A stretch of DNA of 39,837 nucleotides, taken from IMG/VR virus record IMGVR_UViG_3300022751_000027, positions 1 to 39,837 of that record, one strand, 5' to 3'. Below, in pieces: positions 4,812-39,837 of this stretch (its first letter is position 1; every line of letters starts with the position of its first letter). Source of the stretch: a virus. The notes under the pieces were generated by a model, which searched no databases, was not told the origin of the DNA, and saw only the letters and a list, made by a program, of their open reading frames with translations. The position numbers were made by a program, and so were the translations under genes.

Positions 4812-5207
4812 CTAGGGTATGTCAAGGTTAGCAAGTATATTACTTAACAATATATTATATTCTTTATATAAATTAGAATAATCATCAATTATTTTATAAT
4901 TATCAATATAATTACACACATCTGGGCTTTGGTCAGGGTCTGCTATAGAATACCAAATAGAAACAAATATATCACCCAACTGCAATATATATTGTGTTTT
5001 AGTGCTGTATTTGCAGTGTTTAACGAATGGATTTGTAAACACGATAATGCCAGCATAAAGAGAGTCACACTCTATGAGAGTAGACATAAACTGATATAAT
5101 TCATTTAAAAATACATCATCTTGCCTATTTTGCTTAATTGAGCATAAGATTTTTTCCGCTTTATCCCTAAAATGGTATTGATTATCGAGCTTTTCAAGAT
5201 TTGACAT
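4812..5207 (-). CDS. Hypothetical protein, 131 aa
   Basis: Unrecognised late-operon protein, mostly helical by eye, tyrosine- and asparagine-rich, with four cysteines. It has a good SD (AAGGAAAA before the ATG) and starts 10 nt after the end of the Rha gene. No domain seen. Confidence 0.7.
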   Translation of the reverse strand: MSNLEKLDNQYHFRDKAEKILCSIKQNRQDDVFLNELYQFMSTLIECDSLYAGIIVFTNPFVKHCKYSTKTQYILQLGDIFVSIWYSIADPDQSPDVCNYIDNYKIIDDYSNLYKEYNILLSNILANLDIP

Positions 5208-5217
5208 TTACTTTTCC

Positions 5218-5898
5218 TTAGTGCAGTTGTTTGGCTTTATATTTAGCGTCAAAATACTTTTTTAATTGTAATTTGCGGTCATCGTATTCCATGCCTATTT
5301 TTAAAAATGTAGCATTCATAGCCTGCAATTCAATTATAGCTTCGGCTTGTTCGCAAGTTATATATGGACGGATTGATTGCCTTTCTTCTAAATTATGCTT
5401 TTCTCTAAATTTCTTTGCGTTCATTCCTAAAGCAATTACATAAATTAAATTATTTTCTTGTGTAAATCCAAACTTCTTATAATTAGCACTGTCGCTATTT
5501 TCTATTGCATATTTAATTGCGTCTTGATAGGCTGGGTATTCTAATTTTAATGCTTGGCGTGTTTGTAGTTCTTTTGCCATGTTATTAAAAGCATTAATAT
5601 ATGCCTCTTTAAATTTCATAGCTTTTTCGCCCGTGTAACCCATAATTAACATTATTAATCCGTCTTTTGTAAGAAGGTAAAATCTTTCATTTCTAAAACC
5701 ACCATTTGGCATTTTTATTTTGTGAGATGTAAGCGAAAAATTTCGTTGACTAAAATCTATACTTAGAGTTTTTAATATGTCATCAATGCTTTTTAAAACA
5801 TCAGAATGTCTTTTGTCAAAAACCTCTGAAACCTTAATGGAAGATGTTTTTAATTGATTATCTTTAGTTATCATAACTAATTCATTTGAATTTAGCAT
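5218..5898 (-). CDS. rha: Rha-family phage regulatory protein
   Basis: A 226-aa protein. Residues about 5-110 match the phage regulatory protein Rha family: SSIKVSEVFDKRHSDVLKSI, then NFSLTSHKIKMPNGG and YLLTKDGLIMLIMGYTGEKAM. The C-terminal half is a separate basic domain. Rha proteins occur in lambdoid phages as modulators of lysogeny and growth. The start MLNSNELVM was chosen for AGGA 6 nt upstream; a longer frame back to 5961 runs through a structured leader. It sits at the distal end of the late operon, after the endolysin. Confidence 0.85.
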   Translation of the reverse strand: MLNSNELVMITKDNQLKTSSIKVSEVFDKRHSDVLKSIDDILKTLSIDFSQRNFSLTSHKIKMPNGGFRNERFYLLTKDGLIMLIMGYTGEKAMKFKEAYINAFNNMAKELQTRQALKLEYPAYQDAIKYAIENSDSANYKKFGFTQENNLIYVIALGMNAKKFREKHNLEERQSIRPYITCEQAEAIIELQAMNATFLKIGMEYDDRKLQLKKYFDAKYKAKQLH

Positions 5899-6230: not shown

Positions 6231-6686
6231 TTATTTTAAAATAATCCCTTTTGGATAAACTACTTTTTTATTAACAACCATCATTGTCATTACCTGCATT
6301 CTAGGCTTTTTATCTAGCTCATTTAAACCCCAATGTACCCATGAACCCTCATAAATAAGCTGGTCATAAATTAAATTACTAGCTTGTAAAGCCCTGCATA
6401 CCTCATAAGGCGAACCGAAATCAGGGCAAGTGAAATCACATGCTAAAGCTTTTAAATGGTAGCTAGTTCTACTTCCGCCTACTGATTTATTAACCGCTGG
6501 GTTTCTATAGCCACTATTAATTAATATTTTATTATTAAGCAATATAATGCGTACCTTGTCCATGCTTTCAGCTAGCTTAAAAGCATTTGGCATTAAGTGT
6601 TTAGGGATAGAATTATCCAAGCCTAATCTTTCCGCACGTTCTGAGCGGGTAAATTCTGCTAGTGTGAAGTGTGCGGATAGGTTCAT
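6231..6686 (-). CDS. Peptidase M15-type endolysin (peptidoglycan L,D/D,D-peptidase)
   Basis: A 151-aa protein of the Peptidase_M15_3 type: N-terminal FTLAEFTRSERAERLGLDN, SGYRNPAVNKSVGG, then zinc ligands H77 (SYHLKALACDF), D84 and H118 (WVHWG), with E113 as likely general base. It cleaves peptide cross-links or stems in peptidoglycan and is the likely lysis enzyme. No signal peptide, so it needs a holin. It lies with a lipoprotein gene (8232-8414) and a coiled-coil membrane protein (4207-4686) in the late operon. Its start overlaps the stop of the upstream nuclease gene. Confidence 0.9.
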   Translation of the reverse strand: MNLSAHFTLAEFTRSERAERLGLDNSIPKHLMPNAFKLAESMDKVRIILLNNKILINSGYRNPAVNKSVGGSRTSYHLKALACDFTCPDFGSPYEVCRALQASNLIYDQLIYEGSWVHWGLNELDKKPRMQVMTMMVVNKKVVYPKGIILK

Positions 6687-7213
6687 TATTTTGTTATTCC
6701 AAGTCTTTTAAATTCAGTAATAAATTTATACTTATTAAATATATGTTTAGCGTCATCAAGTGCATTATGTGGATTTTCGTTTGTAGGCAATGCTGGTAAT
6801 ATAGCCTTATCTGTTATGAGTTGCTGTATATCTTTTGCTAACCAAGGTATATTACTAGGCTTATCTATTGCCTTACCCCATAACTGGCATAATGCTACAA
6901 AGTCATAAGCACAATATTCGCCCCATAACTCTATATCATCGCCTGTTATAAATTGATTAACTTCGTGTGCTATTTCATGTTTTTGTTTCCAAATATCGGT
7001 ATTATATTTTTCTACAGTAAATCTACCAGATTCTATATCAAACTCTGTTAATTTGGATAAAACATTTTGTTTAAGCCACGTATCAGCAGAATGGAAATTA
7101 AAACCTGAATTTTGCAAATATAATTCCCTGCCGTCTTCGCAAACTATACCTATACTGATTAAATCAATAGTTTTACCATTTTCTAAAAATTCCGTATCAA
7201 AAAAATATCTCAT
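6686..7213 (-). CDS. Rv2179c-like DEDDh 3'-5' exoribonuclease
   Basis: A 175-aa protein beginning MRYFFDTEFLENGKTIDLIS, the ExoI motif D6-x-E8 in the form typical of the Rv2179c-like exoribonuclease family. The C-terminal NPHNALDDA supplies the ExoIII His and Asp. Members trim RNA 3' ends; phage versions may process transcripts. It overlaps neighbours at both ends by single nucleotides, which indicates tight coupling in the late operon. Confidence 0.85.
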   Translation of the reverse strand: MRYFFDTEFLENGKTIDLISIGIVCEDGRELYLQNSGFNFHSADTWLKQNVLSKLTEFDIESGRFTVEKYNTDIWKQKHEIAHEVNQFITGDDIELWGEYCAYDFVALCQLWGKAIDKPSNIPWLAKDIQQLITDKAILPALPTNENPHNALDDAKHIFNKYKFITEFKRLGITK

Positions 7214-7497
7214 TATTTACCCTTAAAAATCTGTTTTAATCTATTCAAAAACGTAACTTTTGGCTTAACATACGGCGTTAATAGGCTATTCAAATACTTA
7301 GTAAACTCTACCGTATTATTGCCACTAAATTCAATTGTTATAGTATTTTCACCTTGAAAAACACTAACTATATTTAAATTTTCTTTACTATGGCTTTTAT
7401 ATAAAGATTGAAAGGCAATTATAGAACTTTGTATAGTTTCATCATAAACTGATATAGCTTTACTTAGTTTATAGGTTAGGGTTAAATTATTCATCAT
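7213..7497 (-). CDS. Hypothetical protein, 94 aa
   Basis: The start MMNNLTLTYK was chosen for AAGGA 9 nt upstream. A further upstream ATG (7518) would extend the protein deeper into the preceding gene. The C-terminus is basic (KVTFLNRLKQIFKGK). No recognised domain. The stop overlaps the exoribonuclease start. Confidence 0.65.
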   Translation of the reverse strand: MMNNLTLTYKLSKAISVYDETIQSSIIAFQSLYKSHSKENLNIVSVFQGENTITIEFSGNNTVEFTKYLNSLLTPYVKPKVTFLNRLKQIFKGK

Positions 7498-8848: not shown

Positions 8849-9169
8849 CTAGTAATTTAAATGTAGTACAATTTCATCATTCACATTTAAAAAATATTCT
8901 AAGATTAAAGTTTTATTATTTTTATCAATTATTTTAATAAATTTATCATCAATAATTATTTTATCTTTATCAGTTTTTGCGATTAAACTATCCGTGCTTA
9001 TTTTCTTTGGATTGCTCCAAATTATTAACTCACATAAAACTGGTAAATTATTTTTTTTGCACAAAAACTGTACGTTTGTACTATGCACTGTTTCGCTAGT
9101 TTTTTTAAACTCAATATCTTTTACATCTTTTAAATATATCAAAGTATCTTTAGTATTTTCAATTAGCAT
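8849..9169 (-). CDS. Hypothetical protein, 106 aa
   Basis: A lysine- and isoleucine-rich 106-aa protein, probably beta-rich (KDKIIIDDKFIKIIDKNNKTLILEYF). Coupled to the preceding Tad2-like gene by a one-base start-stop overlap, with SD AGGA. The two genes form a small cassette after the tailspike, a common site for accessory or anti-defence genes. No family recognised. Confidence 0.7.
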   Translation of the reverse strand: MLIENTKDTLIYLKDVKDIEFKKTSETVHSTNVQFLCKKNNLPVLCELIIWSNPKKISTDSLIAKTDKDKIIIDDKFIKIIDKNNKTLILEYFLNVNDEIVLHLNY

Positions 9170-9663
9170 TATATTATCCTATAGTCTGTTGCGATTTCAT
9201 CATCTGAATTAAAATTATATATCAAATCTTGATTATTAGAATTTAAATATATTTCACTGCCTATTTTGTGCAAATACATATCACTACCCCAAGCCTTGCG
9301 ATATGCTTTTTTACCACTATTTAAAGCTTCAATCGTTGCGGTATGATGTGTTAAAGCTATTAATTCTATATCAATGTCTATTACATTTCTATCAAATTTA
9401 AACATTAGTTTTTTATTAGGTCTATTTATAAATAATAGTTTTTTTTCAAAACTTAATGTTAATAAATTAGTATATAAAGTATCAATTTTATCAATTAAGC
9501 TAGGCATTTGTTTTATATATAAATCATTTTTATATTCTATTCCATTAATTAGCAAATCAAAAAAAATATAAATTTGATTATCTGATTTATTAAATGGCTC
9601 TATGCTTATATTTATAATACTTCCGCTATTTATATAATTAGCTATTTCTTGTATATCTTTCAT
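9169..9663 (-). CDS. Protein with C-terminal DUF2829/Tad2-like domain (candidate anti-Thoeris)
   Basis: A 164-aa protein. Residues about 107-164 read HTATIEALNSGKKAYRKAWG, then SDMYLHKIGSEIYL, and end DDEIATDYRII. That is the layout of DUF2829/Tad2: EAL-x-x-GKK-x-x-R-x-W near the start and a terminal [DE]W/Y-x-I after an acidic turn. Tad2 proteins bind cyclic ADP-ribose-type signals and block Thoeris. The N-terminal roughly 100 residues are an unrecognised beta-rich domain, so this is a fusion rather than a stand-alone Tad2. The terminal motif has Y where W is common. Domain call moderate; function inferred. Confidence 0.6.
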   Translation of the reverse strand: MKDIQEIANYINSGSIINISIEPFNKSDNQIYIFFDLLINGIEYKNDLYIKQMPSLIDKIDTLYTNLLTLSFEKKLLFINRPNKKLMFKFDRNVIDIDIELIALTHHTATIEALNSGKKAYRKAWGSDMYLHKIGSEIYLNSNNQDLIYNFNSDDEIATDYRII

Positions 9664-25515: not shown

Positions 25516-26874
25516 TTATCTATTAAAATGGTTGACAATTGGTACAGGTCTTACGATTACAGGTTCTTTTTTGTTGGTTGCTTGAGGCATTAAGCTACTA
25601 ATCGCCCATATTAAAGCATCGGCTCTATTTGGCGAACCGCTACCAATGTAGCCATACCTAGTAAATGCACACAATTCATCTTCAAGCTTAGTAAAGTACC
25701 CAACATGTCGAACCTTGCCAAGCTCATATAGTGAACTAATTGGCTCGGCTCTAACGTGCTTACCTCGACTTGCGGTTACTGCTTGAAATGGCGTTCTTGG
25801 CCTTGCTACTTGTATTGTTTGTTTAACCATTGCCCCGCCGTAATTAATTTCGCCTACAATGCAGTCAGCTTGATGTCTATCAAATGCCGTAGTAGCAACG
25901 CTACCCCAAACCGCTGGACTGCCATTGACTGTACAATCTTCAAGAACGTATAAATTACCGTCCTTACCTAATCCAACAACAGCAATTCCTATATCATCAG
26001 CACCAACACTATTTTCATCTGCTCCGCTTGGGTCTACTCCTACAATTATTCTAATTAACTGTGGCACTTGGTCGTTTACACATCGCCATGCATCAATATT
26101 ATCATAATTAAACATTGCATCAGGGTTAGCGTCTGCAAATTGTCCGAATAAGAAGCGTTGCTTATTGTGTCCGCTTAGTCCCTCTAAAGTTTTAATATAA
26201 TTCTCGTCTAAATTTTCTAAATTGTCGGCTGGATTCATGAGTATAGAGGCGTAATCATCTTGCTCTAATACTTGCTCTTTATTAACTGGGTGTTGTTTTT
26301 TAATAAATAACTTATATGTCCAATGTGCATTATTTGGAGGGTTGCAGTCAAAATACATGCGATTTTTAAGTAATCCTGCTTGTTTACCATTAATTACTTT
26401 ATAAACTTTTTGTGCGAGCCTTGTTTTTACAATCTCGACGCTTTCCCATGAAATTTGCGAACACTCATTTAAAAAAATAGTACAAAATTCTTTACCAAGT
26501 ATTTTTTCTACGCGTTGCTTATCATCTAAGCCACCGAACCAAATTTCACTACCGTTTGGTAAAGTTGCATAATAATCTGTTTTGTTTATGTTATATTCAA
26601 CGCTGGGAAAAAATAAAGACATTACTTTAGGAAAAGTATCTAATACTATACTTTCTTTAACGTGATTAAATCGTAATCTTAAAATAACATGACGGCTTTT
26701 AGGGGCTAAAATAGCGCGCACTACTATATTTCTAACTATTAATGTGGTTTTAGCAGACCTAGAGCCTCCGAATGCCATTATATATGTAGAGTCTGAAACA
26801 AATATTTGTTGAGCCTCTATCTGTTTTGCGGTTAATACTGCCTTTGGCTTAAACGGTACATCTTGAATTTGCAT
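25516..26874 (-). CDS. terL: Terminase large subunit
   Basis: A 452-aa protein. ATPase: Walker A GGSRSAKT at residues 36-43 and Walker B-like TIFLNEC at 132-138, with Asn-Glu rather than Asp-Glu. RNase H-like nuclease: D281 (VGVDPSG), E342 (GEINYGG) and D419 (NRADALIWA). Start-stop coupled to the small subunit. Relatives are headful-type terminases, which agrees with a circularly permuted genome. Confidence 0.93.
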   Translation of the reverse strand: MQIQDVPFKPKAVLTAKQIEAQQIFVSDSTYIMAFGGSRSAKTTLIVRNIVVRAILAPKSRHVILRLRFNHVKESIVLDTFPKVMSLFFPSVEYNINKTDYYATLPNGSEIWFGGLDDKQRVEKILGKEFCTIFLNECSQISWESVEIVKTRLAQKVYKVINGKQAGLLKNRMYFDCNPPNNAHWTYKLFIKKQHPVNKEQVLEQDDYASILMNPADNLENLDENYIKTLEGLSGHNKQRFLFGQFADANPDAMFNYDNIDAWRCVNDQVPQLIRIIVGVDPSGADENSVGADDIGIAVVGLGKDGNLYVLEDCTVNGSPAVWGSVATTAFDRHQADCIVGEINYGGAMVKQTIQVARPRTPFQAVTASRGKHVRAEPISSLYELGKVRHVGYFTKLEDELCAFTRYGYIGSGSPNRADALIWAISSLMPQATNKKEPVIVRPVPIVNHFNR

Positions 26875-30303: not shown

Positions 30304-30518
30304 GCAAACCCCCTTAATAAATTTTTACATTCTTTTAAAGAGTTTTCAATTTTTGGAAAGCCAATTTTTGTCATTCCTAGCTCATAACAAAACTTTTGAA
30401 AACTTACGGCATTGAAAAATAAAATATTTCTTTTTAAGCAGTGGCTATATAAATAAATTAGTAATATTTTGCTTAGTAAACCCATTTTTTTAACTAATTT
30501 TTGATGATAGGTATTCAT
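30300..30518 (-). CDS. Small protein translationally coupled to rep, 72 aa
   Basis: The start MNTYHQKLVKK overlaps the rep stop as ATGA; an earlier in-frame ATG lies inside rep. It has a hydrophobic helix GLLSKILLIYLYSH, then a basic, aromatic-rich domain (VSFQKFCYELGMTKIGFPKI) that reads like a degenerate helix-turn-helix. This could be a DNA-binding copy-control partner of Rep. Not recognised. Confidence 0.65.
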   Translation of the reverse strand: MNTYHQKLVKKMGLLSKILLIYLYSHCLKRNILFFNAVSFQKFCYELGMTKIGFPKIENSLKECKNLLRGFA

Positions 30519-32089
30519 AAAGCCAATTCCCCCGTCCAAGTACCACAGTTCAAATCCCTTAATCCGCCCTCTATTAGTTCAAGCATGGGCTTTGCGGCGG
30601 CTTTATTGGGGTTTTGGAGTAAGGAATTTGTACAAACCTCTTTCAATTTATCTGTTTTTACATTTACTCTATTGCTGAAAAATCCAAAAAATTGTACATT
30701 GGAACTTAAATAATTAAAATCTAATTTTTTATGTTCAATTGCCTGTTTAGCCAAAGTAATTATACTTTTAGGCATATTCTCACCTTTAGCTAGTGAATTT
30801 AAAACATCAATTTTTTCATTTTCTGCCAATACCTCCCATCTATTTTTTACTTGCTCTTTTAGACTCTCAAAATTAGCCTTATCTTCCTCTGTTGGCTTAG
30901 TAGACTCACTATATTCTTGGGCTGTTTGGTATTTTTGCCCTAAAGAATTTTCACAATTATTTTTGTGTATTCCAGCATATTTATCGTTTTGATAAATGTA
31001 AGAGGCTTTCGGGTCTTGTGTTTTTGGCTCAAGCACTTGTTCTACCGGCAATATTATTTCATCTTTTATTGTATTTTGAACCTCTAAAAAACCTTTATAG
31101 TTTGCATTTTTTTTCATTAAACTTGTAAAGTAAGCACCATTTGATTCTGGTTTATTTTTAATCGTTTCATTCATATTATCTAAAATTTGTTGCCTGCGGT
31201 TAATATCTGAACTATCCCAATACTCAAGCAATAAATCCTTGTTTTTATAACCCCAGCCTAATATTGTTTGTATTGGTTTAGGGTAAGAATTATCTATTGT
31301 TTTTATTATTTCATAACTATTATTGTCCTGTATATCAGATATTTTTTGAACAATATTTTTACATTCTTTTTCTTTAACTAAATAAAAATTTATAGATTGG
31401 ATAGTATTTTTATATTTTACTAACTCTATTTTTACATCAAAATCAGCAGAATTATTTATTTCTTGCTCCACTACTTTGATTGAACGCTTATAAAGGTTTT
31501 GAAATGATGAGTATTTATCTACAGTATTTGTAATTTCTCTATACTTTTCTACTGTAATATTAATCTGTTTTTGCGGTCTTTTTTGTTTATTTTTGGCATA
31601 CTCCATTTGACAATAAAGCATAGCTATATATTCGTAAACAGCACATGTATGCTTGCTCTTAAACCTAGATGTTATCAATAAATTATTCTTAGTAAATCCG
31701 TTAGATAGATTTTTTTCTTTATCTAAATTTAAAGCGTCCATAAGTTTTATAGAAAATTCTATTTCCACATAGTCATCTATGACTTCAAATGACGCTATAA
31801 AACAACTTTCTTTTGAATTTGCTAGCAAATTTGTTTTTATAAACTCAATGCTTTTAGTCTGTAAGCCATTTATGGACTTTTTTATAAGGCTTTGGCTTTG
31901 TTGGATACCTGAACCAATTACCTCAAATAAACTTACTAAAGGCACTTTAACAATATTGTTATTCCACTTTATTTTTTGTAATTCAAGCAAAAAAATATTA
32001 TAAAACTTGTGTTCTATTAGGTCTAAATTTTGGCTTCTTTCAATAATGAAATTTGGCTTTCTTAGTATAAACAATGAATTATCAGACAT
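30515..32089 (-). CDS. rep: Plasmid replication initiator, Rep_3-like, with long C-terminal extension
   Basis: A 524-aa protein. The N-terminal about 235 residues follow the Rep_3 initiator pattern of tandem winged helices: LDLIEHKFYNIFLLELQKIK, IKKSINGLQTKSIEFI, then TCAVYEYIAMLYCQM and NITVEKYREITNTVDKYSS, with YKRSIKVVEQEINNSADFDV. The C-terminal about 290 residues are extra, hydrophilic and partly helical, so it is much longer than usual Rep_3 proteins. It binds iterons to open the origin. SD AGAGG overlaps a predicted pseudoknot site. Upstream lie a leader ORF, antisense RNA and iterons. Confidence 0.85.
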   Translation of the reverse strand: MSDNSLFILRKPNFIIERSQNLDLIEHKFYNIFLLELQKIKWNNNIVKVPLVSLFEVIGSGIQQSQSLIKKSINGLQTKSIEFIKTNLLANSKESCFIASFEVIDDYVEIEFSIKLMDALNLDKEKNLSNGFTKNNLLITSRFKSKHTCAVYEYIAMLYCQMEYAKNKQKRPQKQINITVEKYREITNTVDKYSSFQNLYKRSIKVVEQEINNSADFDVKIELVKYKNTIQSINFYLVKEKECKNIVQKISDIQDNNSYEIIKTIDNSYPKPIQTILGWGYKNKDLLLEYWDSSDINRRQQILDNMNETIKNKPESNGAYFTSLMKKNANYKGFLEVQNTIKDEIILPVEQVLEPKTQDPKASYIYQNDKYAGIHKNNCENSLGQKYQTAQEYSESTKPTEEDKANFESLKEQVKNRWEVLAENEKIDVLNSLAKGENMPKSIITLAKQAIEHKKLDFNYLSSNVQFFGFFSNRVNVKTDKLKEVCTNSLLQNPNKAAAKPMLELIEGGLRDLNCGTWTGELAL

Positions 32090-32228
32090 AGCTAACCTCT
32101 ATTTGGCTAGACTTTAATTTATTCTCAAATGATATTTTTGTAAATTGATTTTTGATTAACGTAGCGTTTTGGCTACATTCTTTTGTAAATTGGTATTTAT
32201 CCGAACTTGATATTTTTGTCTTTTGCAT
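32082..32228 (-). CDS. Leader ORF upstream of and coupled to rep, 48 aa
   Basis: Starts MQKTKISSSDKYQFTKECSQ and ends in VSYV; its TGA overlaps the rep start by 8 nt, so ribosomes finishing it terminate at the rep RBS. SD AGGGA lies 9 nt upstream, beside the base of the antisense-target hairpin. It contains two QFTK repeats encoded by iteron-like half-sites, and an internal hairpin GTAGC/GCTAC (32161-32176). The layout copies leader peptides (RepY-type) of antisense-controlled plasmids, which act by being translated rather than through their product. Confidence 0.65.
   Translation of the reverse strand: MQKTKISSSDKYQFTKECSQNATLIKNQFTKISFENKLKSSQIEVSYV
32136..32192. repeat. Two iteron-like half-sites in inverted orientation inside the rep leader
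   Basis: TTTTGTAAATTG occurs at 32136-32147 and 32181-32192. It shares TGTAAATT with the complement of the four iterons at 32581. The pair therefore lies inverted relative to the origin repeats, 45 bp apart. In iteron plasmids inverted iteron-like sites near the rep start are commonly the autorepression operator bound by Rep dimers. Confidence 0.55.
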
Positions 32229-32235
32229 TTATAAT
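32207..32235 (+). promoter_or_regulatory. Antisense RNA promoter
   Basis: TTGATA (32207-32212), exactly 17 bp, TATAAT (32230-32235), one mismatch from the sigma70 consensus. It points against rep. Transcription would begin around 32242, at the base of the first hairpin. Confidence 0.75.
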
Positions 32236-32241
32236 TTTCCC

Positions 32242-32323
32242 TGTGCATAGGTGGTTAAGCTCTCGTATGCACAGATGTTCATTTCTTATATAAAAGCCAA
32301 TCTTTCCTGTTGGCTTTTTCTTT
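32242..32323 (+). ncRNA. Antisense (counter-transcribed) RNA controlling rep
   Basis: An approximately 80-nt RNA. Hairpin 1 is CTGTGCATA/TATGCACAG (9 bp, 16-nt loop, 32241-32274). A short spacer follows, then terminator hairpin AAAAGCCAA/TTGGCTTTT (32292-32318) running into TTTTTCTTT. It is fully complementary to the rep leader mRNA just upstream of the leader-ORF SD. Its loop contains GGTTAAGCT, nearly the GGTTAGCT that overlaps the rep SD and start, so the antisense RNA competes for the same leader loop. Classical copy-number RNA architecture. Confidence 0.75.
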
Positions 32324-32358
32324 GTCTAGAAACAAACAATTCTTAATGCATCTCTAAA

Positions 32359-32387
32359 ATTATATTCCTAGTTAGAAATAAAATCAA
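32359..32387 (-). promoter_or_regulatory. rep promoter
   Basis: On the minus strand TTGATT, exactly 17 bp, TATAAT. The transcript would start near 32352 and have a leader of about 125 nt before the leader ORF, spanning the antisense target. It lies between rep and the iterons. An A/T-rich stretch (32420-32560) between this promoter and the iterons may include the DNA-unwinding element. The gene-free stretch 32229-32686 is filled by these control elements. Confidence 0.7.
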
Positions 32388-32580
32388 TAGCTTGTTAGTA
32401 CTTTCTTAAACTCTTTTTATCTAAAAAAACAAACAAACAAAAACATGTTTATTGGTCGCCTGTATGTTCAATTAATCGAGATTTTGTTTAATGTCTCTTG
32501 TTTGTTATGGTTTATAATAGTTTCTTATGGTTAAGAAAGGCTACATTGTTTGTTTATGCGGTATTTGACTATACCTATAG

Positions 32581-32658
32581 GTACAAATTTACAGACAATG
32601 AGTACAAATTTACAGACAATGAGTACAAATTTACAGACAATGAGTACAAATTTACAGA
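32581..32658. repeat. Replication origin iterons, 3.7 copies of a 21-bp repeat
   Basis: Perfect direct repeats with a 21-bp period start at 32581, 32602, 32623 and 32644; the fourth diverges after GTACAAATTTACAGA. The period of two helical turns puts all sites on one face of the DNA, as for Rep-binding iterons. They lie upstream of the rep promoter, with AT-rich DNA between. One forward frame through them reads YKFTDNE repeats, which is a by-product. Confidence 0.9.
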
Positions 32659-32686: not shown

Positions 32687-32980
32687 CTACTTATATAATT
32701 CAGGATTTTTATCTTTGAAATTGGAAATATGCTTAATTACAATTTGTACTTCTTTGTCAATTTCTAATGGCGAAATATTAATCTCATTTAATTTTAGATG
32801 TTCGTGTAAATCGTAAATACTTGTACTTATAGAAGTCTGTCCTTTTTTATGATTACTGAACTTCTCCATAAAATGCATAAAAATAATTTTTTGAGTACGA
32901 TTTTCTAGTTGCTCCATTGATTTTTGTATTACATTTTTCATTCTTTTAATATTCTGTTTTAAACTACTCGCTTTCCCCAT
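32687..32980 (-). CDS. Hypothetical plasmid-module protein, 97 aa
   Basis: A basic, helical 97-aa protein (GKASSLKQNIKRMKNVIQKS) with a central coiled coil and an acidic, isoleucine-rich end. Its stop is 29 bp from the iterons, and it is transcribed toward them. Copy-control, partition or stability roles are possible by position only. SD AGGG. Divergent from the 33051 gene. Confidence 0.65.
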   Translation of the reverse strand: MGKASSLKQNIKRMKNVIQKSMEQLENRTQKIIFMHFMEKFSNHKKGQTSISTSIYDLHEHLKLNEINISPLEIDKEVQIVIKHISNFKDKNPELYK

Positions 32981-38139: not shown

Positions 38140-38430
38140 ATGCCTACATTTGCACAAATGATTACACATCTATTCAATATCGATACAAAATCATTACATT
38201 TAAACACAGAATGGTATGGCGAGGAACAAGCAGTTTGGGGCTTGAATTTAGAACTAAGCCTAAATCATGATTTAGTTGTAAACGACTTTGAGCGTCAATT
38301 AACCAAAGATGATGCTTTAATCAAATTCGAGCAAACCCACTTTGATTATATTTGGGATTTATATATGGAAAACACAGACCATATACACCAAATGACTAGC
38401 TTTGAATATTTTAATGAGCTTTGTGCTTAA
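38140..38430 (+). CDS. Hypothetical acidic protein, 96 aa
   Basis: An acidic, His/Trp-containing 96-aa protein (HLNTEWYGEEQAVWGLNLEL; FEQTHFDYIWDLYMENTDHI). Strong SD AAGGAG. It directly precedes the recombination pair, so a recombination accessory or a host-nuclease inhibitor is conceivable. No match recognised. Confidence 0.65.
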   Translation: MPTFAQMITHLFNIDTKSLHLNTEWYGEEQAVWGLNLELSLNHDLVVNDFERQLTKDDALIKFEQTHFDYIWDLYMENTDHIHQMTSFEYFNELCA

Positions 38431-38438
38431 GGAGTAAT

Positions 38439-39068
38439 ATGCATAATATAATAATACATCAGGTAGAGCAAGGTAGTATAGAATGGTTTAACTTACGTGT
38501 AGGCATGGTTACCGCCTCTAAGTTCTCAGACATCATTAAAAACGGTAAAGGCGGACAAGAAAGCCAGTGTAAATTAACTTTGATTGAGGCTTTAACCGCT
38601 GAAATTTTAATCAATAAAAAATTAGACTTTGGACAAAGTTTTTCAATGAAGCAAGGTGTTGAACGTGAACCATTAGCTAAAATAGCATACGAACAAAAAA
38701 CCTTTAATAGAGTTGATAGCGTAGGCTTAATTCAAATAGAGGATTATTACATAGGTTGTAGTCCTGACGGTTTAATTAACGACAATGGCGGTATTGAAAT
38801 AAAATGCCCTGAGCCTAAAAAACATCTTGAGTATTTAAAGTCTGAAACTATGCCAAGCGAATACATCGCACAGGTTCAAGGCTGTATGTGGGTAAGTAAT
38901 CGTAAATACTGGGATTTTGTTAGCTATAATCCTGATTTTCCCGAACATTTACAATTAAAAATTATTAGAGTAAATAGGAATGAAGAAGTTATCGCCAAAA
39001 TAGAAAAAAATGCATATGAAGTTGAGCAAGCAGTTCGCAGTCAAGTATCAAAATTATTAAAGGTATAA
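38439..39068 (+). CDS. YqaJ-family (lambda exonuclease-like) recombinase exonuclease
   Basis: A 209-aa protein: IEWFNLRVGMVTASKFSDII is the YqaJ N-terminal signature. Catalytic residues of the PD-(D/E)xK fold are D in GCSPDGLI, E and K in GGIEIKCP, and Q in IAQVQGCMW. It resects DNA ends to 3' single strands for the annealing protein encoded next, as Red-alpha does for Red-beta. The start MHNIIIHQVEQ was chosen for AAGGAG 5 nt upstream. Confidence 0.92.
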   Translation: MHNIIIHQVEQGSIEWFNLRVGMVTASKFSDIIKNGKGGQESQCKLTLIEALTAEILINKKLDFGQSFSMKQGVEREPLAKIAYEQKTFNRVDSVGLIQIEDYYIGCSPDGLINDNGGIEIKCPEPKKHLEYLKSETMPSEYIAQVQGCMWVSNRKYWDFVSYNPDFPEHLQLKIIRVNRNEEVIAKIEKNAYEVEQAVRSQVSKLLKV

Positions 39069-39069
39069 A

Positions 39070-39801
39070 ATGAGCCAAGAAAAAGAAACAAAAATAAAAG
39101 AAAGTAAAGTTAGTCATAGTATAGATGATGTTAAAAAAATGAACATCTACGAAAAATTAACCCTAGTTCAAGCTAAATTACAATCCAAAAAAGATTTAAC
39201 TAACGGTCAATTCAAGTCTAAATATAGAACAATTGAGGGAATTTTAAGCGGTTTAAAATCTTTATTGATAGAATATAGATTAAATCTTACGTTTAGCGAT
39301 GAAGTTATTGCTATAGGAGAAATGGATTTCAAAGAAATTAAAGATAATAATGAGATAAACGAAAAAGGCAATCGTTTTTATATTAAAGCTAATTTAATTC
39401 TAGTAAATATTGATAGTATGGATCAAACCATTAGCGGTTATGGTTTAAGCCGTGAAGCACAAATTAAAAAAGGTGTGCAAGTAGAAATGCTAACAGGCAT
39501 GGCTAGTACTTACGCTAGAAAAAAAGGGCTTGAGGGATTATTCCTAATAGCTGATAATGACGCTTTAGACCCTGATAGTATAATTGATGAACAAGCTAAT
39601 TTTGAAGAAAAGAAAGAAGACCAAGAGAGGATTTATCAAGCCTTAATACAGGATATAGATAATCTAGATAATCTAGATAATGTACAGGCTATTGGTAGGC
39701 GTATTAGTAGGTCTTATTTACCAAAACTTAAAAGCGAAATGCTTAGCAATAAGCTAACGGCTAAAGGATTGGAGCTTAAAAAAGCAGAAGCAATAAACTA
39801 A
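39070..39801 (+). CDS. erf: ERF-family single-strand annealing protein
   Basis: A 243-aa protein with IYEKLTLVQAKLQSKKDLTN at the N-terminus and the ERF signature GMASTYARKKGLEGLFLIAD around residues 143-162, followed by an acidic DPDS. ERF proteins form rings that anneal single strands; in P22, Erf circularises the terminally redundant genome after injection. It sits one base after the exonuclease gene, the usual pairing. A 9-bp tandem repeat (GATAATCTA, about 39657-39682) encodes DNLDNLDN in the linker. Confidence 0.92.
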   Translation: MSQEKETKIKESKVSHSIDDVKKMNIYEKLTLVQAKLQSKKDLTNGQFKSKYRTIEGILSGLKSLLIEYRLNLTFSDEVIAIGEMDFKEIKDNNEINEKGNRFYIKANLILVNIDSMDQTISGYGLSREAQIKKGVQVEMLTGMASTYARKKGLEGLFLIADNDALDPDSIIDEQANFEEKKEDQERIYQALIQDIDNLDNLDNVQAIGRRISRSYLPKLKSEMLSNKLTAKGLELKKAEAIN

Positions 39802-39837
39802 CCCCCCCCCGCCCCGTTTTGGGGCTTTTTTAATATA
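39695..39837. repeat. Terminal overlap, copy 2
   Basis: Same sequence as 1-144 apart from a missing T at the terminator loop. Base 39695 corresponds to base 1. Confidence 0.9.
39811..39831 (+). terminator. Terminator after erf (second copy)
   Basis: GCCCC/GGGGC stem with a GTTTT loop and six T; the same terminator as at 117-138, seen again because the circle was opened here. Confidence 0.85.

Follow-up and report, generated by a model that had tools for sequence, protein, structure and literature searches.

A candidate leader-coupled antisense RNA control module common to two phages with different Rep_3 initiators

Directly upstream of a Rep_3 initiator gene in a phage genome lie two convergent promoter sequences, a predicted antisense RNA, a translatable leader ORF whose end overlaps the start of rep, and an mRNA hairpin over the rep Shine-Dalgarno (SD) sequence. 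We read these parts jointly, with a probability of roughly two in three, as the copy-control module of the initiator, in which the antisense RNA would block translation of the leader, ribosomes on the leader would open the SD hairpin, and Rep would be made by translational coupling. The window analyzed here is the whole of IMG/VR record IMGVR_UViG_3300022751_000027 (39,837 nucleotides), and the features of the region are collected in Table 1.

Table 1. Replication genes, control signals and RNA helices, in window coordinates.
Feature	Position	Strand	Details
rep, Rep_3 initiator	30515..32089	-	524 aa; WH1+WH2 N-terminal region, C-terminal ~173 aa common to the relative
Leader ORF	32082..32228	-	48 codons; stop overlaps rep ATG by 8 nt
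Control module as a unit	32090..32506	-	borders: rep start; just before iterons
Rep/leader promoter TTGATT-17-TATAAT	32387-32359	-	10/12 consensus match
Antisense promoter TTGATA-17-TATAAT	32207-32235	+	11/12 consensus match
Predicted antisense RNA	32241 to about 32323-32326	+	target hairpin + terminator hairpin; 5' end inferred from -10 box
Helix A, rep mRNA, encloses helix T	32276..32338 (32328-32338 with 32276-32286)	-	all 11 pairs present in each phage
Helix T, antisense terminator, also mRNA stem	32292..32318		terminator scan; A-U to C-G double change in the relative
Helix I, kissing/target hairpin	32241..32274		mRNA loop UUAACC at 32258-32253; z -4.5
Helix IV, hairpin inside leader ORF	32159..32178	-	two one-sided changes, pairing kept
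Helix III, CUAGCC/GGUUAG	32092..32110	-	masks part of rep SD AGAGG (32100-32096); in consensus fold
Iterons	32581..32658		3.7 copies of 21 bp (GTACAAATTTACAGACAATGA); presumed ori

In the proposed mechanism, the rep mRNA would start near 32352 and form stems A, T and I; the leader ORF comes next, with its ribosome binding site (RBS) immediately abutting the base of hairpin I. Hairpin III, with the end of the leader ORF as its 5' arm, would partly mask the rep SD until ribosomes reaching the leader stop, 8 nt inside rep, open it and allow rep to be translated. An antisense RNA made constitutively would kiss the loop of hairpin I and pair into a duplex beside the leader RBS, blocking leader translation, and hence Rep synthesis, in proportion to copy number; the iterons and Rep would then act as in other iteron replicons. 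Transcription of the module, antisense inhibition, coupling and copy control are what we infer from the sequence, and the RNA switch so formed would probably set how often the circular DNA of these phages replicates.

The window, a phage record, encodes a terminase, a portal and head proteins, and its large terminase subunit (25516-26874) is closest to those of Synechococcus phages Ssp-JY42 and Yong-M4-211 (49%). Positions 1-143 and 39695-39837 are identical apart from one base in a T-run, and because of this end overlap of about 143 nt the genome, although the record is classed as linear, is probably a complete circle of about 39.7 kb. A search for a tyrosine integrase (PF00589) found none in this record or in that of the relative described below, and no partition gene was present in the ORFs scanned. 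Virion genes together with a plasmid replicon (Rep_3 with iterons) and no integrase are the gene content of a phage-plasmid, which the window genome plausibly is; its apparent circularity and lack of a tyrosine integrase fit that form. The genome also carries a RecE-like exonuclease paired with an Erf-like single-stranded DNA annealing protein (38421-39801). One of the 38 small proteins scanned matches the Pfam Tad2-like family (anti-Thoeris 2, E=4e-4), and by sequence this is probably the product of 9169-9663.

The rep product matches PF01051 (E=9e-12, 46 bits, cut-off 22.4) and PF21205 (E=4e-9, 36.9 bits, cut-off 21.1). With WH1 above the curated cut-off, WH2 present and iterons near the gene, it belongs to Rep_3, and it has no Pfam match to IncFII RepA. 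Between the iterons and the rep promoter, a 62-nt non-coding box (32430-32491) is identical in both phages and has differing flanks; it is a possible origin or operator element.

A second phage, IMGVR_UViG_3300022930_000015, was the sole relative detected. The antisense RNA and leader ORF ahead of an iteron/Rep_3 initiator, which the initial annotation had proposed from the window, and the SD-sequestering hairpin are all found again there as sequence, with both promoters and the same hairpins, with pairs preserved and with the leader in the same register with rep; the conservation case for the module is thus one of two sequences. Homology detected by blastn covers window positions 32506-32113 and, when aligned directly, continues as far as the rep start, so that the module is homologous between the phages and the flanking iterons and the DNA-binding domain of Rep are not. 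The relative has 4.9 copies of a 22-bp iteron unit unrelated to that of the window. The N-terminal halves of the two Rep proteins are unrelated in sequence, yet both match PF01051 and PF21205 (27.2 and 29.5 bits in the relative), and their C-terminal ~173 aa are 95-96% identical (window 30515-31036; positions 5001-5522 of the examined piece of the relative). As an observation on Rep itself, the initiator was exchanged at a domain border, together with its iterons. Because the relative joins the module to another Rep_3 DNA-binding domain and to iterons of unrelated sequence, the module is portable, and on this comparison the predicted control module has, as one unit, come to serve two kinds of Rep and iteron. 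Most structural genes of the two phages differ, and the portal of the window was not found in the relative. Beside the iterons, the window has a 97-aa ORF without clear family (32687-32980), where the relative instead has a DnaB-like helicase gene (6553-7389 of a second examined piece; phrog_19, E=1e-37).

Scans of viral contigs with the leader peptide, the leader start plus peptide, the N- and C-termini of Rep, the portal, the hairpin and a neighboring gene found no relative beyond this one; the remaining contig matches were rejected as chance. A scan of genome contigs gave chance matches only, DNA searches of phage and plasmid collections gave no useful match, and a search of 398 genomes belonging to the same phylum as a Pelagibacteraceae genome did not find Rep. 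In the same genome sample, none of 28 Rep_3 genes was preceded by an ATG-initiated leader ORF of at least 40 codons overlapping rep by 4-10 nt, and one had a 26-codon ATG ORF with an 8-nt overlap; this survey is rough because start codons were guessed.

The TGA stop codon of the leader falls inside the first codons of rep (ATGTCTGA). Hairpin III, which covers part of the rep SD, has a modest predicted energy (-6.1 kcal/mol, z -1.2, in the window; -7.9 kcal/mol, z -2.1, in the relative), and its arms are identical in both phages, leaving no variable pair, with changes in the loop and flanks. The initial annotation had gone further and proposed RNA pseudoknot control. In such a switch, of the IncI-alpha/IncB type, a pseudoknot between UUAACC in the loop of hairpin I and GGUUAG at the rep RBS would be needed for, or limit, Rep translation, and the antisense RNA would compete for the loop. 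The loop sequence AGCTTAACC is indeed complementary, with one bulge, to GGTTAGCT (32097-32090), but this stretch takes in only the GG of the SD, runs on through the spacer and stops immediately ahead of the rep ATG, so that the SD part of the claimed complementarity stands and the start codon is not covered. Both UUAACC and GGUUAG are kept in the relative even though most of the loop has changed, the loop contains a U-turn-like YUNR stretch (read from the sequence), and the leader, antisense RNA and SD hairpin are placed as in IncI-alpha/IncB plasmids. Against this, the loop-RBS duplex is at chance level compared with shuffled sequences (P 0.08-0.12 in the window, 0.48-0.66 in the relative), and 17 of 67 other RBS-like sites in the same genome pair with the window loop over at least 6 bp, 14 of the 67 pairing with the loops of both phages and four with UUAACC itself. 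The loop has a stronger partner elsewhere on the same mRNA than at the rep SD. The conservation of GGUUAG has an explanation within hairpin III, where it is the 3' arm and pairs with CUAGCC. In replicons of the IncI-alpha/IncB type the activating pseudoknot lies upstream of the SD; the pairing considered here would instead cover the SD. The loop-SD pseudoknot is therefore not supported by the sequences, and we regard control by it as unlikely. A portable phage cassette in which a true loop-SD pseudoknot joins the antisense RNA and a translated leader, and which serves different iteron/Rep_3 initiators, would be, if anything, slightly more doubtful.

Coupling through the leader, the reading we prefer, places the weight on translation of the leader ORF, and the way this ORF has changed between the phages is consistent with that. 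The counterpart in the relative has 52 codons and keeps the frame, the start and the stop/start register through 34 substitutions and one in-frame 12-nt indel. Since the frame stays open in 17% of random-change simulations, in which the indel and the stop register are left out, its survival alone is weak evidence; the kept register and the multiple-of-three indel add to it. The leader could also encode a functional small protein, for example a Cop-like repressor, with the overlap with rep as ordinary gene packing, and a length of 48 and 52 codons, an RBS and start of its own, and a common stretch, YQFTKECSQ, would suit such a product. Nonsynonymous and synonymous differences, however, are nearly equally frequent (pN 0.233, pS 0.248; pN/pS about 0.94), no Pfam or PHROG match was found for the leader, and YQFTKECSQ lacks synonymous changes and lies beside a hairpin whose pairs are kept, which fits an RNA constraint. 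The peptide is under no clear selection, which fits a role of its translation rather than of its product; because it is not conserved as a protein, translation itself probably matters, and we consider a functional leader protein improbable.

Transcription attenuation of the pT181/pIP501 type is common among other antisense-controlled replicons, and the several stems of the leader RNA could be taken to point the same way, with binding of the antisense RNA favoring a terminator in the rep leader. On the rep strand, however, the terminator scan detected nothing resembling an intrinsic terminator from the promoter to the rep start, and attenuation would not account for the conservation of the leader ORF and of its register with rep, so we think it quite unlikely that the antisense RNA works in this way.

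The two convergent near-consensus promoters and the two-hairpin rightward RNA ending in a terminator, both described in the initial annotation, held up, as did its 48-codon leader with a stop overlapping the rep start. In shuffled sequences, an 11/12 promoter match occurred within the 360-nt module in 2% of cases and two matches of at least 10/12 in 7%. In the relative, the aligned place of the leader promoter reads TTGATT, then TACAAT, and the counterpart of the antisense promoter is TTGATT-17-TATAAT (read from the sequence). The rightward RNA (32241-32326) has a predicted fold of -25.3 kcal/mol (z -4.5), which none of 200 shuffles equaled, and consists of two hairpins, the 3' one terminator-like with a tail in the terminator scan.

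Comparison of the two phages shows that pairing has been preserved on the mRNA strand. In hairpin I, the lower stem is identical, except that the outermost pair has changed from U-G to G-C; two loop-end pairs are lost in the relative, and the loop has mostly changed except for UUAACCA. Helix A, which was absent from the initial annotation's reading of the rep mRNA, is in the minimum free energy folds of both phages and keeps its pairing through four one-sided changes. All eight pairs that vary in helices A, T, I and IV are still paired, with a probability of 2e-4 to 3e-3 when one new base is drawn per changed side, in a test of two sequences for which the helices were delimited with both in view. 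When read on the antisense strand, just four to five of the same eight are standard pairs, indicating that selection acts on the rep mRNA. For the mRNA strand, the two-sequence consensus fold has a z score of -8.4, compared with -5.4 for the opposite strand (both versus column shuffles). Computed from the alignment alone, in which a gap in stem A is misplaced, a consensus fold independently recovers T, I, III and IV. That the hairpins and promoters are chance in AT-rich DNA, where the wider region has about as many promoter-like sites as chance predicts (16 seen, 15.9 expected), or that the region acts only as DNA (origin, operator), is hardly credible given the antisense and consensus fold scores and the strand-specific, pair-preserving changes.

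Several known replicons have parts of this arrangement. The IncI-alpha, IncB and IncL/M plasmids (RepY leader, Inc RNA/RNAI) share with the window an antisense RNA, a leader ORF terminating at rep and an SD-masking hairpin, and differ in their loop pseudoknot, which is unsupported in the phage, their IncFII/RepZ-class initiator and their iterons; in the window, neither an initiator of that class nor a pseudoknot upstream of the SD was found. In the CopA-CopT and Tap system of IncFII plasmid R1, leader translation opens the rep RBS by coupling. The arrangement in R1 fits the one described here, with the antisense RNA beside the leader RBS, although R1 has an IncFII RepA initiator and different gene sequences and the phage module has Rep_3 and iterons (on R1 control, see Blomberg 1992, as cited in PMC5304414).

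The RepB theta plasmids of lactococci and enterococci are alike in having a Rep_3 initiator (PF01051, PF21205), 22-bp iterons upstream and an antisense RNA whose hairpin immediately precedes the first RBS. In pCD4, pIL105, pHP003 and pEF123, matches to RF00238 (ctRNA_pND324) of 82-88 bits lie directly upstream of rep, the Rep proteins of the three tested (pCD4, pIL105 and pEF123) are PF01051, and 22-bp iterons are present in pCD4 and pIL105. The ctRNA of pND324 is reported to control replication (Duan et al. 1998, as cited in PMC5812246). Unlike in the phages, however, the ctRNA of these plasmids lies at the rep RBS itself, and three of the four have no leader ORF of at least 15 aa ending near the rep start, the fourth having one of 18 codons. 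RF00238 had no match in the window at the gathering score and none up to E 10 in 32000-32520; weak matches to other Rfam families (a tmRNA fragment, E 0.008, and STnc430) were far below gathering scores and were rejected.

The REx-C and REx-R modules of Pseudomonas plasmids contain a putative antisense RNA, stem-loops and a leader ORF (Bardaji et al. 2017, PMC5304414), and the REx-C modules are exchanged among unrelated initiators (PMC5304414). Like the phage module, REx-C modules end at the first rep codons and move between initiators. They differ in being on plasmids rather than phages and in serving RepA-PFP and three initiator families without known domains, whereas both phage initiators are Rep_3, with different iterons. 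As to a sequence relation to REx-C or plasmids, there was no plasmid match at E 1e-5, and matches at E up to 10 were short and spurious.

The initial annotation's view that RNA pseudoknot control of an iteron/Rep_3 replicon was not known to be described claimed too much novelty, as Rep_3, iterons and an antisense RNA are already known together. What is new is the predicted leader-coupled antisense control on Rep_3, in phages, and common to different initiators; no prior description of this arrangement was found in a search of open-access papers. Textbooks divide theta plasmids into iteron-controlled and antisense-RNA-controlled replicons. Both control types would be present together here, as in the lactococcal RepB plasmids, but with a leader-coupled RNA module, and the two phages provide a testable case for phages exchanging RNA modules of copy control without regard to the initiator, a kind of exchange already demonstrated in Pseudomonas plasmids.
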